Assembly: GCA_016928495.1 (NCBI GenBank)
Contig: JAFGKQ010000195.1
Coordinates: 1 to 5,084 of the forward strand
DNA from: Candidatus Fermentibacterales bacterium
GTDB taxonomy: Bacteria > Fermentibacterota > Fermentibacteria > Fermentibacterales > JAFGKQ01
DNA: 5,084 bases
Reading direction: 5' to 3'
The notes under the pieces were generated by a model. That model did not search any database and was not told the DNA's origin. It was given only the letters and a program-made list of their open reading frames with translations. Every line of letters starts with the position of its first letter. Positions within the stretch are counted from its first letter, which is position 1. The position numbers and the translations under genes were made by a program. Positions 1 through 5,084 of this stretch are shown here, one piece after another.

Positions 1-687
1 ATCACCTTTTCCGTGCCAGAGATATGCACACGGATGCCGGTGGTCTCCATACCGGTGGTCAAGACCAACCACAGATCGACCATCTCGTGTGCCCTGATGA
101 ACCTGCTCGGCTGCCTGGACGAGCGGAGGCGAAGCGATCACCACCGGCTGGCCGACCTCCTGAGCCGGGTCAACGAGGAGATCCCCGTGGTCTTCACGAT
201 AGCCGACGGGACGGTCTCGCTCGACGGAAGCGGGCCCAGGCCGGGAGCCCCCATCCATACCGACTTCGTCGCGCTCTCTCAGGACAGGGTGGCTATGGAT
301 GCATCACTTGCCGGGCTGATGGGTTTCGATCCTCTTGCCATCGAGACTGTCGTCAGAGCGAACGGGCGCGTGGGAACCATGGAGAACCTCTGCGAGATCC
401 CGCTGTACCCGCTGCGGAGCGTTCCGTCCTTCCGGCTGAGGGCGCCGGAGCCCGACTTCCTGGCGAGGATGGAGGACCGCCTGATGGACAGAAGAAGGCG
501 GAAGACCCATCCCGGGGACGGCCTGATCATGCGGGCCATGAAGAGAGGGGGCCGGCTCTGGTACTGCCTGGCCCACTACCTGACTGGCCAGAACAGACAG
601 GCGAGCAAGTGGATAAGGGATTCGGTCTACGGTGCGCAATGGCTGGGAAAACCGGAGCAGCCATCGGGAGGCGGTGAGCGGAGGTGA
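1..687 (+). CDS. DUF362-family protein, C-terminal part (5' end outside window)
   Basis: The reading frame is open from base 1, so this is the 3' part of a longer gene; 228 residues are visible. The GTG at 13 is very unlikely to be the true start because the family core is already under way there. Visible residues 18-38 carry the DUF362 signature (P-V-V-K-T-N-H, then A-L-M-N-L-L-G-C). Next come T-I-A-D-G at 66-70, S-G-P-R-P-G at 77-82 and the D-R-V-A-M-D-A block at 95-101, all in the expected order. DUF362 proteins are widespread in anaerobes and often lie near or carry Fe-S domains, but no enzymatic activity is firmly established that I know of. After the core, about 100 residues (from about 125) form a basic tail rich in Arg and Trp/Tyr that I cannot assign. 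The stop overlaps the next gene's GTG start by four bases, implying translational coupling. Confidence is high for the family and low for function. Confidence 0.82.
   Translation: MTFSVPEICTRMPVVSIPVVKTNHRSTISCALMNLLGCLDERRRSDHHRLADLLSRVNEEIPVVFTIADGTVSLDGSGPRPGAPIHTDFVALSQDRVAMDASLAGLMGFDPLAIETVVRANGRVGTMENLCEIPLYPLRSVPSFRLRAPEPDFLARMEDRLMDRRRRKTHPGDGLIMRAMKRGGRLWYCLAHYLTGQNRQASKWIRDSVYGAQWLGKPEQPSGGGERR
665..670 (+). promoter_or_regulatory. Probable ribosome binding site of the radical SAM gene
   Basis: GGGAGG lies 13 bases before GTG 684, a longer spacer than ideal. A second GGAG directly abuts the GTG. Initiation may rely mainly on coupling to the terminating DUF362 frame at GTGA. If the start were ATG 708 there would be no good site in front of it. 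Confidence 0.35.
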
Positions 688-1769
688 AGCTCTCCAGCCA
701 GCTCGGGATGGGCGTGAGCGCGGCACTGGGCCTCTTGGGCAGGAGGCGTCCGGTGAACGTCATGGCCTCGGTGACCGACCACTGCCCGAGCAGGTGCAGG
801 TACTGCCAGATACCGTCCCAGAACAGGCCTGACCTTCCGACTGCCGTCTGGAGAAAGCTGATCGCGGAGATGGCGGCCGCCGGCACGCAGAGAATAGGCG
901 TCTGGGGAGGCGAGCCGCTCACCAGACCCGACATCGTCGAGCTCTGCGCCTGTATGCGCGAGCTCGGCATCTACGTCAGCATGGACTCGAACGGATATCT
1001 GCTGCCCTCCAGGCCGGATGTGCTCTCCAGCATCGATCACCTCGTCCTGGCGCTCGACGGGCCCCGGGAGGCGCACGACGCCAACAGGGAGCCGGGCAGC
1101 TTCGATAAGGTCATGCAGGCCATCGAAATGGCTTCCGGCAAGGTACGCCTGTGGACCATCACGGTGATAACCAGGAACAACATCGACAGCCTCGGCTTCG
1201 TGCTGGAGGCGGCCCGGCGATACGGCTTCATGGCGACCTTCCAGACGCTTCATCACAACGACATACTCGGCAGGAACACCTCCGAGCTGATACCCGGCGA
1301 CGAGCGGTACCGCGAGGTCTTCACCGAGCTTCTCGAGCTGCGCCGCAGGGGCTCCCCGATCGCCCTGTCCGGCAGGTTCCTGCGGAGCATGTCGCGATGG
1401 CCCGACTTCTCCACGACCAGGATGCCCGGGAAGCTGCACGGTGTCCGATGCAGCGCGGGACGCATGTACTGCAACGTGGACGTGGACGGCCTGGTCTACC
1501 CGTGCTCGCTCCTGATCGGTCTCTATCCCCGCGCCCGGAGCGCGCTCGAGCTGGGCTTCCGGGCGGCGTTCGAAGCGGCCTCGGAGCTGCCGTGCCAGGC
1601 CTGTACTGCTACCTGCTATACGGAGTACAACTTCCTCTACCGGCTGCTTCCCGACGTGGTCTGGGACTGGTCGAGGAACGTCTCCAGGACGGACGAGCTG
1701 ATGAGATCCGCGGCAAGCAGGTCGAAGAGCCGGAGAGAGGAGGGGAATGCCAGCTCTGTCGGAGCATAG
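684..1769 (+). CDS. Radical SAM enzyme with C-terminal SPASM-like Fe-S region
   Basis: This 361-residue protein has the radical SAM motif C34-x3-C38-x2-C41 (C-P-S-R-C-R-Y-C), which binds the [4Fe-4S] cluster that cleaves S-adenosylmethionine. The G-G-E-P SAM-binding motif follows at 75-78, and a core resembling MoaA/PqqE/HpnH-type enzymes continues through L-D-G-P (near 125). The C-terminal part holds six cysteines: C256, C263, C274, C304, C307 and C311. Their pattern (C-S-A-G-x3-C, D-G-L-V-Y-P-C, then C-x2-C-x3-C) is that of a SPASM/Twitch auxiliary-cluster domain. The length fits a single rSAM-SPASM enzyme. GTG at 684 is the first possible start after an in-frame stop at 675-677, overlaps the upstream stop, and has GGGAGG 13 bases upstream; ATG at 708 is an alternative. 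The 3' end overlaps the next gene by 23 bases. SPASM enzymes often modify peptides, but others act on small molecules or proteins. No precursor peptide is visible, so the substrate is unknown. Confidence 0.9.
   Translation: MKLSSQLGMGVSAALGLLGRRRPVNVMASVTDHCPSRCRYCQIPSQNRPDLPTAVWRKLIAEMAAAGTQRIGVWGGEPLTRPDIVELCACMRELGIYVSMDSNGYLLPSRPDVLSSIDHLVLALDGPREAHDANREPGSFDKVMQAIEMASGKVRLWTITVITRNNIDSLGFVLEAARRYGFMATFQTLHHNDILGRNTSELIPGDERYREVFTELLELRRRGSPIALSGRFLRSMSRWPDFSTTRMPGKLHGVRCSAGRMYCNVDVDGLVYPCSLLIGLYPRARSALELGFRAAFEAASELPCQACTATCYTEYNFLYRLLPDVVWDWSRNVSRTDELMRSAASRSKSRREEGNASSVGA
1738..1743 (+). promoter_or_regulatory. Ribosome binding site of the beta-ferredoxin fusion gene, inside the radical SAM gene
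   Basis: A perfect AGGAGG sits three bases before ATG 1747 and is extended by further G residues. The spacing is shorter than optimal, but no other start exists between the in-frame stops at 1699-1704 and this ATG. The site lies in the 3' coding part of the radical SAM gene, so translation of the two genes is probably coupled. Confidence 0.6.
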
Positions 1770-3240
1770 AACAAGGGCCCTTCTCCGGGACGCGGGCCTG
1801 GACGTGGTCGAGGCGATCATGGTGCCCGCGGATGAGGACATGCCTTCTTCGCCGCCCTTTTTGCCGGCCTGGCTGAAGGCCCAGGTCCCCGGCCTGACCA
1901 GCAGGAAGGCAAAGGGGCTGGTCAGGCGAGCGGGAAACGCCATCGAGTACCGGGAGGCCTGCCGCCGGATGCTCTCGGACCCACACTGGGCCAGCTCCGA
2001 GGGCATGCTGATAGCCAGGGAGGTCGGGCTCCGGCAAGAGCTGTACGCGGCCTGCACTCTGGACCTGGGCTCCGAGTCCTCCCAGCCCGGCGGGCTGCTG
2101 CTCTTCGGAGAGGCCGGCGGCTCGGGAGTGGAAGCCAGGGCCGGCGGCCTGCACAGGATCGCCTTCTCCCTCCTGGACCCCCCTGGCCCGGAGGCGCTGG
2201 CGGCATCGGCGCCCCAAGGGCTGCTCGACGAGGCTCTGAGCGGCTTCCTCGCCGGCATGGTGGGGGTCTTCCTGAGACACAGGCTCCTGGTGCTGGAAGT
2301 CAACCCCCTTGGAATAGCGGAGACGGGACTGCCACTTGCCGTGGACTGCCGGGCGGAGTACGAGAGGAGCGCCATCCCGGATGAGAGCGCGGCCATGTTC
2401 GAGGGCAGCGCCCCGGGATCGGCCTCGAGGACCCCTCTGGAGGAGATAGTCGCGGCGATCAACCAGCAGGACCCTTCGGGCACGGGCTTCTTCAGGCAGA
2501 CGAGGGACGAGGTCCCGCCCGGGGCCTGGAAGATCGCCACCAACATATGCGGAGGCGGCGGCAAGATGCTCTGGGAGATGGCCACGGGCGGAAGGCCGGA
2601 CATAGCTAACCTCAACGAGTCCGACACCTCGGGCGGGCTTTCCGCCTTCAAGAGCTACCGGATTCTGAGGGTCATCATGGCGCTGCCGGAGGCCCAGTTG
2701 CTCGTGCTCACGGGCTCGGGCATGGCCTTCCAGAGTCAGTACTCGATAGCGGTGGCAGTCTGGAAGGCGCTCAGGGAGACGCCGACACCCCTGCCCTGCC
2801 TGCTCAGGTTCGGCGGCACCGACGAGGGCCGCGCGATGGGCCTTTTCGAGCGAGTCTCGGACTCGCTCCCGGCGAGAGTGAGGGTATACAGACCCGAGGT
2901 CTTTCCCAACGCCATGCTCGATGACATACCGGCAATAGCGCTGGAGGACGGAAGCCCGGAGGCCAGGCGGCGTGAGGTCCGGATGCCCTCATACCCGCTC
3001 GCCTTCGAGGTCGAGCAGCCTCCCGGACGCTTCACGAGGGACCCCTCGATCTGCGCATCATGCGCGACTCGCGCCTGTCTCGACTCCTGTCCCACCAGCT
3101 TCCTCGCCTGGAGCGGCAGCGGTCCCGCCCCGGCAGGTGGAGATGCCAGGTGCGTCGGCTGCCTTCTGTGCGAGGCAGCCTGCCTTCTGGACGGAGCCGG
3201 AGGCATGAGGATCGAGCTGGGGCTCCCCGGGGAGGTGTGA
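1747..3240 (+). CDS. Succinyl-CoA-synthetase beta-like (ATP-grasp) protein fused to a 2[4Fe-4S] ferredoxin domain
   Basis: The protein has 497 residues, about 110 more than a standard SucC (about 388). Residues 5-200 align by eye with the SucC ATP-grasp region: S-E-H-R-T-R-A-L-L at the start, L-K-A-Q-V at 43-47, the E-L-Y strand at 98-100, then E184-V-N186-P-L with D200. These match the metal ligands of E. coli SucC in motif and spacing. The usual G-G-R-G-K loop is replaced by S-R-K-A-K-G (52-57). Residues 262-380 are the CoA-ligase domain, with a Gly-rich loop at 269-272 and N-E-S-D-T-S-G-G at 290-297. The C-terminus adds C436-x2-C439-x4-C444-x3-C448-P and C469-x2-C472-x2-C475-x3-C479, predicting two [4Fe-4S] clusters and hence electron transfer. 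ATG 1747 is the only start after in-frame stops at 1699-1704 and has AGGAGG just upstream. It presumably forms a complex with the alpha-like product next door. Substrate unknown. Confidence 0.88.
   Translation: MPALSEHRTRALLRDAGLDVVEAIMVPADEDMPSSPPFLPAWLKAQVPGLTSRKAKGLVRRAGNAIEYREACRRMLSDPHWASSEGMLIAREVGLRQELYAACTLDLGSESSQPGGLLLFGEAGGSGVEARAGGLHRIAFSLLDPPGPEALAASAPQGLLDEALSGFLAGMVGVFLRHRLLVLEVNPLGIAETGLPLAVDCRAEYERSAIPDESAAMFEGSAPGSASRTPLEEIVAAINQQDPSGTGFFRQTRDEVPPGAWKIATNICGGGGKMLWEMATGGRPDIANLNESDTSGGLSAFKSYRILRVIMALPEAQLLVLTGSGMAFQSQYSIAVAVWKALRETPTPLPCLLRFGGTDEGRAMGLFERVSDSLPARVRVYRPEVFPNAMLDDIPAIALEDGSPEARRREVRMPSYPLAFEVEQPPGRFTRDPSICASCATRACLDSCPTSFLAWSGSGPAPAGGDARCVGCLLCEAACLLDGAGGMRIELGLPGEV
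3231..3235 (+). promoter_or_regulatory. Ribosome binding site deciding the start of the SucD-like gene
   Basis: GGAGG at 3231-3235 lies inside the last codons of the beta-like gene, ten bases before ATG 3246. This favours ATG 3246 over the in-frame GTG at 3237, which would be separated from the site by only one base. Confidence 0.6.
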
Positions 3241-3245
3241 GCTCC

Positions 3246-4232
3246 ATGGGCGGCATACTCTCACATCTGGCCGGAATCGAGGAGCCCGAGGTGCTGGTCC
3301 TCGGCATAACCGGCAAGCAGGGCAGCTCCAGCAGCAGGCTCATGAGGGAGTTCGGCACCAGGGTCGTAGCCGGCTGCACGCCCGGCAAGGGCGGCCGGGA
3401 TGTTGACGGGGTGCCGGTGTTCGACTCGCCGGAGCAAGCCGTCAGAGCCTTCCCTGGCATCAACTCGGCAGTGCTGTTCGTGCCCTCCAGGGCCGTGCTC
3501 GAGGCGACGAGGGGCCTCATCGAGCTGGGGATACGCTTCGTGGTGCTCACCGCCGACGGAGTCCCGACTCACGACGCCATCCGGGTGCGTGTTCTCTCCA
3601 TGAGGTCGGGGACGAGGGTCATGGGCCCGAATACGGTCGGCATGCTCGATACGGAAGGCTACCTCTTCGGCATGATCGGCGGAAGAGGCAGGTGGGCCAG
3701 GGAGAACTACACCCCCGGCTGCGTAGGGGTCATCTCCAGGTCGGGCGGCCTCTCGCAGCTCCTGGGGGCGTTCCACTGCCGCAGGAACCTCCCCGGGCCG
3801 GGGCCCGACGGCCGGCTGCAGCCTCTCTGGGGCGACGACTCACCCGGGGTCTCGGCGGTTCTCTGCACGGGCGGAGACCCGGTCCCGGGCACGACGATGC
3901 TCGAGGCGGCAAGGGCCTTCCAGGCCGATCCGAGGACCCGCGTCATAGCGGCCTACGGCGAGACGGGGACCTCCCAGGAGAACGACCTGGCAGAGGCGAT
4001 GCTCCGCGGCGAGATAGACAAGCCGGTCGTCATCTTCCTGGGAGGCAGGTTTACGCGGCCGGGTGTCGCGCAGAGCCACGCCGGAGCGATGATAAGAAGC
4101 GAGAGCGAGACCTACGAGGCCAAGAGGGCGGCGCTGGAGAAGGCCGGAGCCCGGGTCGTGGACAGACCCGATGCCGTGTTCTCGGCAACCGCCTCCATCC
4201 TGGGCCTCTCCAGGGGCCCGGCTGAGGCCTAG
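3246..4232 (+). CDS. Succinyl-CoA-synthetase alpha-like (CoA-binding, phospho-His) protein
   Basis: This protein has 328 residues against about 289 for E. coli SucD. It follows SucD through its whole length: the CoA-binding Rossmann loop G-I-T-G-K-Q-G (20-26), C-T-P-G-K-G-G (44-50), V-P-V-F-D (56-60), G-P-N (127-129), S-R-S-G (164-167), G-G-D-P (209-212), G-E239-T, and S-H278-A-G-A. H278 corresponds to the histidine phosphorylated during catalysis and E239 to its partner glutamate; their spacing (39) nearly equals that in E. coli (38). This predicts an active NDP-forming acyl-CoA synthetase alpha subunit. Between S-R-S-G and G-G-D-P there are about 18 extra residues (within 175-205) replacing the family's G-Q-S-T stretch, and G-P-N-C-P-G reads G-P-N-T-V-G, so substrate or partner contacts probably differ. 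ATG 3246 is chosen for its GGAGG spacing. An in-frame GTG at 3237 overlaps the upstream stop but would lie almost on top of that site. The protein acts with the preceding beta-like product. Confidence 0.87.
   Translation: MGGILSHLAGIEEPEVLVLGITGKQGSSSSRLMREFGTRVVAGCTPGKGGRDVDGVPVFDSPEQAVRAFPGINSAVLFVPSRAVLEATRGLIELGIRFVVLTADGVPTHDAIRVRVLSMRSGTRVMGPNTVGMLDTEGYLFGMIGGRGRWARENYTPGCVGVISRSGGLSQLLGAFHCRRNLPGPGPDGRLQPLWGDDSPGVSAVLCTGGDPVPGTTMLEAARAFQADPRTRVIAAYGETGTSQENDLAEAMLRGEIDKPVVIFLGGRFTRPGVAQSHAGAMIRSESETYEAKRAALEKAGARVVDRPDAVFSATASILGLSRGPAEA
4200..4232. terminator. Possible hairpin spanning the two convergent stop codons
   Basis: Bases 4200-4208 pair with 4224-4232 to give a nine-pair stem (eight Watson-Crick pairs and one G-T), with a 15-base loop containing a GGGCCC palindrome. 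It covers the last codons of the alpha-like gene and the shared CTAG stop. No T-run follows on either strand, so it is not a classical intrinsic terminator. It could be a bidirectional transcription barrier, an mRNA 3'-end stabiliser, or a chance result of G+C-rich sequence. Confidence 0.25.
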
Positions 4233-5084
4233 AGCAGGATCAGCCTGGTCACCTGCCTGAGGTTGCCGGCCGACCTCCCTTCCACGAGGTAGGTGCCTGC
4301 CGGCAGCCCGTCGAAGCTCAGGCTCCTCGAGCCCGGCTCGAGGCTGGCTGTCTGGAGGAGCCTCCCTGATACGTCGTAGACCCCGATCCGGATCGCCAGC
4401 CCCTCGAGTCCCGGCCACTCGACCACGGCCGTTCCGCTCGAGGGATTGGGGAATACTCTCATGAGCCCGGTTCCGCCCCCGGGTGGCGCGGGCTGGTCCT
4501 CGACCCCCAGCAGCGCTGTGCTCAGGACGAAATGACCGGGATCGAACCTGACTATCAGCGGCTCGAAGGGCACGGTGAAGACCTCCACGTCGGACTGCAC
4601 GTCGTTCCACATCACCACGAGGGAATCCTCGCTCGACCCCTGTATGAGGAACTCCAGCGGCATCACGAACAGCGGCCCGACCCACTGGTCCTGTTTCACC
4701 GTGATCGTCACGTCCCAGTCCGACCCCGACTGCTCCCAGGAGTAGCCGATGCTGTAGATCGGGAAGCCCCAGTCGAACACCCAGGTATCGAAGAACCAGT
4801 CTATGTCGTCACCGGTAACCAGCTCGATGTGGTCGCGAAGGTCGAGCGAGGTGGCCGTCTCGAAGTCGTGGTGGTCGTAGTAGCTCTCGAGAGATGCGTA
4901 GAAGTCCTCGTCCCCCAGAATGTGCCTGAGCATGTGCAGGACGCTGGCGCCCTTCTCGTAGGTGGTGTACCCCCAGAGCTCGTCAGGGTCTGCCAGTGGG
5001 AAGAGCTCGCCGCTCTGGAGGTAGGGGATCATGATGTCGTGGACCATGTAGTCGTCGTAGGCCTCCCAGCCGTAGGTCTCGGCC
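4229..5084 (-). CDS. Secreted M1-family metallopeptidase, C-terminal part, with type IX secretion sorting domain (5' end outside window)
   Basis: The frame is open to the right edge; 284 residues are visible and the true start is outside. The ATG at 5047 is internal, because upstream codons continue the family pattern (E-T-Y-G-W-E-A-Y). Visible residues 38-45 contain Y-T-T-Y-E-K-G; its Tyr (42) matches the transition-state-stabilising tyrosine of M1 aminopeptidases. Then H-M-L-R, G-D-E-D-F-Y and a D-W-F-F-D-T-W-V segment finish the helical thermolysin-like region. A beta-sandwich region follows (about 108-195), typical of M1 enzymes. The zinc motif H-E-x-x-H should lie outside the window, so catalysis cannot be confirmed here. 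Residues 208-284 form a Por/type A sorting domain (F-P-N-P-S-S-G, V-Y-D-V-S-G-R-L, L-P-A-G-T-Y). In T9SS bacteria this tail directs export across the outer membrane and is removed or anchored. The gene is probably functionally independent of the convergent operon. Confidence 0.88.
   Translation of the reverse strand, partial: AETYGWEAYDDYMVHDIMIPYLQSGELFPLADPDELWGYTTYEKGASVLHMLRHILGDEDFYASLESYYDHHDFETATSLDLRDHIELVTGDDIDWFFDTWVFDWGFPIYSIGYSWEQSGSDWDVTITVKQDQWVGPLFVMPLEFLIQGSSEDSLVVMWNDVQSDVEVFTVPFEPLIVRFDPGHFVLSTALLGVEDQPAPPGGGTGLMRVFPNPSSGTAVVEWPGLEGLAIRIGVYDVSGRLLQTASLEPGSRSLSFDGLPAGTYLVEGRSAGNLRQVTRLILL

Follow-up and report, generated by a model that had tools for sequence, protein, structure and literature searches.

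Enzymes of the succinyl-CoA synthetase (SCS), citryl-CoA synthetase (CCS) and ATP-citrate lyase superfamily share an established chemistry, in which ATP phosphorylates a histidine residue, the phosphate is transferred to give an acyl phosphate and the acyl-CoA is finally formed. The characterised superfamily members found in this analysis carry no Fe-S cluster. Ferredoxin-type domains with two cysteine motifs follow a rule of their own, by which one [4Fe-4S] cluster is bound by the final cysteine of motif I together with the leading three cysteines of motif II.

The stretch of DNA analyzed here (5,084 nucleotides in full, hereafter the window) is located on contig C289 of a 2.3 Mb genome, 81% complete, whose relatives are Candidatus Fermentibacterota. 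It encodes a SucC/SucD-like pair whose large subunit ends in a ferredoxin domain. The reading considered moderately probable is that this pair is an uncharacterised ATP-dependent acyl-CoA ligase of the SCS/CCS/ATP-citrate lyase superfamily equipped with a DmsB-type Fe-S module, with docking or redox sensing as the most likely role of the module.

Gene organization of the locus

The frame at 1747-3240 (forward strand) is open throughout and codes for a single protein of 497 amino acids, in which a SucC-like ligase is followed by a C-terminal ferredoxin domain with eight cysteines, so that the initial annotation, which had placed a SucC-like ATP-grasp subunit and an Fe-S domain in one frame, was right on this point. 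The features of the locus are presented in Table 1. In most Fermentibacterota loci the gene order is DUF362 - radical SAM - SucC - SucD. A frame artefact, named beforehand as a finding that would overturn the fusion, and likewise a chimera or an assembly error, were ruled out because the fusion is conserved at full length and recurs, with the gene order, across many genomes. The domain-architecture search proposed together with the claim revealed no characterised family with a SucC plus 4Fe-4S fusion in Pfam, NCBIfam, PDB or the literature searched, and literature searches on such a fusion, on homocitryl-CoA and on FixX structures gave nothing useful.

Table 1. Features of the locus, with positions in the window.
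Feature	Position	Strand	Basis
DUF362 protein, 3' part	1..687	+	PF04015, E 9e-15
Upstream neighbour, a radical SAM protein whose gene overlaps the start of SucC; not counted as part of the enzyme	684..1769	+	PF04055, E 7.8e-19
Large subunit, SucC-like ligase portion with ATP-grasp and CoA-ligase domains	1747..3018	+	Residues 1-424; AlphaFold/Foldseek matches, invariant catalytic residues
C-terminal Fe-S (ferredoxin-type) domain	3019..3237	+	Residues 425-497; profile matches to DmsB/NrfC/FdhB-type subunits
Cys436, Cys439 and Cys444 codons, predicted cluster I ligands	3052..3078	+	Cys in 3/29, 2/29 and 15/29
Cys448 codon, predicted to ligate cluster II (the conserved one)	3088..3090	+	Invariant, 29/29
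Cys469, Cys472 and Cys475 codons, predicted other three cluster II ligands	3151..3171	+	Invariant, 29/29
Cys479 codon, predicted fourth cluster I ligand	3181..3183	+	Cys in 2/29, Ser/Ala in the others
SucD-like small subunit (CoA binding, CoA ligase)	3246..4232	+	NF004230 SucD model, E 1.2e-55, below cut-off; start set at the ATG used by homologues
Codon for His278 in the SucD-like subunit, the presumed phosphorylation site (SHAGA)	4077..4079	+	Invariant, 9/9; aligns with HAGA of solved SucD chains
M1 peptidase with type IX secretion (T9SS, Por) C-terminal sorting tail, downstream	4229-5083	-	

Conserved ligase features of the two subunits

An AlphaFold model of the large subunit (mean pLDDT 85.7, pTM 0.61) was matched by Foldseek to the beta subunit of Thermus aquaticus SCS (E 3e-22) and to citryl-CoA synthetase 6hxq_B (E 5e-20), and also to ATP-citrate lyase. 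The ATP-grasp set of Lys, Arg, Glu, Asn and Asp is present as K44, R53, E98, N186 and D200, all invariant in 26 aligned proteins and aligned with what we take to be the corresponding E. coli SucC residues. The protein was not filed as SucC because the cut-offs of the curated models (PF08442, NF001913 and TIGR01016) were not reached, with a score of only 23.5 against the 370-bit cut-off of NF001913; the lack of any match of the window protein to PF08442 (Pfam ATP-grasp_2) also counts against the favoured reading. A side feature of this subunit is Cys268 (window 2548-2550), located in ATNLCGGGGKMLWEM, which is invariant in all 29 close homologues and replaced by Ala in distant ones.

The SucD-like partner that had been proposed for the large subunit was confirmed directly downstream, with the phospho-histidine retained and Glu239 also invariant. 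This subunit is 63-66% identical to its counterparts from Phycisphaerae, Myxococcota and Riflebacteria, which suggests that all these pairs carry out the same reaction. At about residues 182-202 it contains a family-specific insertion of about 18 residues (FHCRxNLPGPxxDG...PLWG) that includes a conserved Cys and is missing from the distant homologues L089 and L090.

From these features we infer a mode of action like that of a CCS/SCS ligase. The SucC-like subunit would bind ATP, which would phosphorylate His278 of the SucD-like subunit, the phosphate would move from this residue to a carboxylate, and CoA would then displace it to yield the acyl-CoA. A plainer view, in which the pair just adds another succinyl-CoA (or dicarboxylate-CoA) synthetase to the genome and the tail is decoration, agrees with the T. 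aquaticus SCS beta subunit being the best structural match; however, the window genome already encodes canonical SucC and SucD side by side, the pair misses the curated SCS cut-offs widely and its pocket loops differ, making this quite unlikely.

The C-terminal Fe-S domain and its distribution

The tail contains the motifs C436-x2-C439-x4-C444-x3-C448-P and C469-x2-C472-x2-C475-x3-C479, with cysteine codons at 3052, 3061, 3076, 3088, 3151, 3160, 3169 and 3181, so that the spacing and the span of the ligand codons (3052-3183) are exactly those given in the initial annotation. None of 100,000 shuffles of the 497-amino acid protein produced both motifs together. The Pfam dicluster ferredoxin models matched the tail weakly (Fer4_7, E 7.9e-5, below cut-off), and the AlphaFold model of this part alone is of low confidence (pLDDT 63.5). 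A profile built from 11 homologous tails matched the DmsB/NrfC/FdhB-type ferredoxin subunits in PDB, with E-values down to 1.8e-8. A FixX-like tail was also considered from the match to 7koe_D (E 0.0017), the second single-sequence match and the best one for the tail; the profile favours the DmsB/NrfC/FdhB type instead. The tail is a genuine, inherited Fe-S domain, predicted to hold its clusters at the sites listed in Table 1.

Of the order's 41 other genomes, 29 carry the fusion; two of the 29 (G004 and G024) have truncated or split matches, the break in G004 apparently coming from a contig end. When 84,980 species' genomes were scanned, 30 fusion loci emerged, 26 of Fermentibacterota type and four from MAGs of other groups (two Phycisphaerae, one Myxococcota and one Riflebacteria), at 46-54% identity. 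The fusion is rare in the sampled Planctomycetota (392 genomes), Myxococcota phylum (377) and Riflebacteria phylum (39). A homologous tail is present in all 29 close full-length proteins and also in the distant homologues L089, L090, L092 and L093.

Only Cys448, Cys469, Cys472 and Cys475 are invariant among the eight cysteines in the 29 aligned full-length proteins, window included. The complete set was found in the window protein and in L053, and again in L089, a distant homologue from the Myxococcota phylum that has the same eight-cysteine spacing with 26% overall identity. The description of the domain as two-cluster is thus correct for the window and L053 and fails for the other 27 of the 29 close proteins, which have the ligands for one cluster (one set in 26, with L036 intermediate). 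The planctomycetotal L090, L092 and L093 retain domain and ligase with no complete ligand set; the tail of L090 is about 31% identical to that of L089 over 84 residues, in a comparison set that is tiny for E-values. Two sets (window, L053, L089), the intermediate L036, one set (26 others) and none complete (L090, L092, L093) form a stepwise series, of which an ancestor with two clusters and later loss is the simplest reading; the tree has many long branches and places neither the root nor the ancestral two-cluster state firmly. Such an inherited tail, with eight ligands in some members, four in others and an incomplete set in the rest, offers a natural series for the question of whether it is a wire, a sensor or a scaffold.

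The tail probably folds around the one conserved cluster (Cys448, 469, 472 and 475), with the second being optional. Since ligands have been lost while the domain was retained, the tail is most likely a structural, docking or redox-sensing element, and would not be an obligatory electron path. The initial annotation had suggested that acyl-CoA chemistry is tied to low-potential electron transfer, with ATP-driven reduction of a carboxylate as one option. Such coupling could operate in two ways, either by reduction of the activated carboxylate or acyl-CoA, a possible fate of the activated acid, or with a 2-oxoacid:ferredoxin oxidoreductase feeding the tail while the acyl-CoA is converted into acid and ATP. 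Every one of the 29 close proteins keeps one full [4Fe-4S] ligand set, the tail is similar to DmsB/NrfC-type subunits that transfer electrons, and the single conserved cluster could still carry electrons, a point that weighs against the preferred dock or sensor role. Nevertheless, cluster I has been lost in most relatives, both sets are broken in planctomycetotal homologues in which domain and ligase persist, and in the loci read the pair has no consistent association with an acyl-CoA reductase, an oxidoreductase or any other redox enzyme. Coupling is therefore considered unlikely, and ATP-driven carboxylate reduction found no support.

Gene context and the link with citrate-like chemistry

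Outside Fermentibacterota the pair is usually beside or fused to a citryl-CoA-lyase-like protein, and it is thus related to citryl-CoA synthetase and ATP-citrate lyase. A lyase domain or partner was found in L056, L057, L089, L090, L092 and L093. In L056 and L057 the lyase-like gene lies directly upstream of the pair, which closes an operon that also codes for an isocitrate/homoisocitrate-dehydrogenase-like protein, an HD protein and two enzymes of the aconitase/HacA family, one of them with a separate small subunit. The genome of L055 carries the same operon genes on another contig (G060:C406, L091), and in L058 (Riflebacteria) the pair stands alone. In L089 a saccharopine dehydrogenase comes first, followed by SucC with its ferredoxin tail, by a SucD whose fused citryl-CoA-lyase domain passes the NCBIfam cut-offs, and by an HD protein; three Planctomycetota genomes show the order SucC, SucD, citryl-CoA lyase, HD protein and aconitase.

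Two further observations concern these loci. A small HD-domain protein adjoins the ligase/lyase modules in the lyase-bearing lineages (L057:4436-5011, L056:4085-4660, L089:5025-5564 and L090:5660-6241, the last on the reverse strand). The saccharopine dehydrogenase of L089 (441-1796, forward strand), which matches alpha-aminoadipic semialdehyde synthase in PDB (E 7e-84), is encoded directly upstream of the ATP-citrate-lyase-like SucC-ferredoxin gene, and a link to lysine or homocitrate is possible.

The family is linked to citrate-like chemistry because gene contexts outside Fermentibacterota carry both lyase and aconitase-family genes. In these lineages the acyl-CoA would probably be split by the adjacent or fused lyase-like protein, which makes a citrate-like hydroxy acid the probable substrate. 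Pfam Citrate_bind (PF16114) gave a mixed picture: the L089 SucC scored 30.7 and thus passed the cut-off of 26.8, L090 fell below it and the window protein had no match. This gene context lies beyond the window and for that reason escaped the initial annotation. With their lyases, these relatives indicate an uncharted citrate-like metabolism in uncultured phyla.

Two findings weigh against this part of the favoured reading. The citrate signature GGxxANxT...RRxGP is replaced in the close family by GSGxAxQ...RxGG, the window loops being TGSGMAFQSQ...LRFGGTDE in a comparison with CcsA, AclA and ACLY, the last in part with the loops that we presume for it. Moreover, the lyase step is not general in Fermentibacterota, since no citrate-synthase-fold gene was found in 15 of the 18 fusion-carrying genomes at least 90% complete. 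This fold is also absent from the window genome at its 81% completeness, and neither this genome nor the 41 others of the order contain a close relative of the citryl-CoA-lyase-like protein. With no lyase and no citrate signature, the window pair was not filed as citryl-CoA synthetase or ATP-citrate lyase. Most genomes of the order lack a citrate-synthase-fold gene, yet have one or more aconitase-family genes.

Homocitrate has been weighed as the substrate, the pair together with the lyase acting as an ATP-homocitrate lyase that would run the alpha-aminoadipate pathway in reverse, from lysine to acetyl-CoA and 2-oxoglutarate. The missing citrate signature, the saccharopine dehydrogenase of L089 and the L056/L057 operon, which encodes two hydro-lyases of the HacA family and a dehydrogenase matched best, within NCBIfam, by homoisocitrate dehydrogenase, would all fit. 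However, the saccharopine gene occurs at one locus only, the dehydrogenase is equally close to isocitrate dehydrogenases and passes no curated cut-off, the L089 SucC passes Citrate_bind and most Fermentibacterota have no lyase, so this substrate is judged decidedly unlikely. An equally doubtful extension is that these proteins make up a new family of (homo)citrate-type ligases and lyases that depend on ATP and bear an Fe-S domain, some of which (L089, L056, L057) would be ATP-homocitrate lyases reversing the alpha-aminoadipate lysine pathway, with the cluster as a redox switch or dock.

Independent inheritance of the upstream radical SAM gene

Among the other 41 genomes of the order, 36 have the radical SAM gene. 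At least seven genomes keep this orthologue but not the ligase, and five of these (G001, G002, G008, G011 and G018) are at least 90% complete. At the syntenic places of these ligase-less genomes the ligase pair is absent, and in three of them DUF362 is not adjacent. Beyond Fermentibacterota all radical SAM matches were remote (at most 36% identity), and the ligase occurs there without the orthologue. Each gene thus occurs without the other and they are inherited independently; these phyletic patterns reject, as a general rule, the radical SAM enzyme as a dedicated redox partner, the docking role suggested for it in the initial annotation. The same patterns make it very improbable that the pair, the radical SAM protein and DUF362 form one modification pathway, despite the order of the four genes in most Fermentibacterota loci. 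As regards the DUF362 - radical SAM pair itself (window 1-1769), nearly all Fermentibacterota retain its radical SAM member, whether or not DUF362 and the ligase accompany it.

Comparison with known systems

The window pair shares the fold, the catalytic residues and the phospho-histidine of the SucC/SucD succinyl-CoA synthetase, and differs from it in the Fe-S tail, the pocket loops and the insertion in the SucD-like subunit. The CcsA/CcsB citryl-CoA synthetase of Hydrogenobacter thermophilus (6hxq), which is among the PDB fold matches and is used with a citryl-CoA lyase, likewise consists of separate SucC-like and SucD-like subunits, and relatives of the window pair have a separate adjacent citryl-CoA-lyase-like gene; in contrast, CcsA/CcsB has no Fe-S tail and shows the citrate signature (GGTANNT...RRNGP), and most Fermentibacterota are without the lyase. 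The ATP-citrate lyase AclA/AclB of Chlorobium limicola (6hxj) shares with L089 the AclB-like fusion of SucD and lyase, but the AclA chain in PDB (398 amino acids) lacks the Fe-S tail and the window clade lacks the lyase domain. Finally, the DmsB/NrfC/FdhB-type ferredoxin subunits have motifs like those of the tail (C-x2-C-x4-C-x3-C-P and C-x2-C-x2-C-x3-C), whereas the module of the window is fused to a ligase and, in its relatives, from half to all of the ligand sets have been lost.
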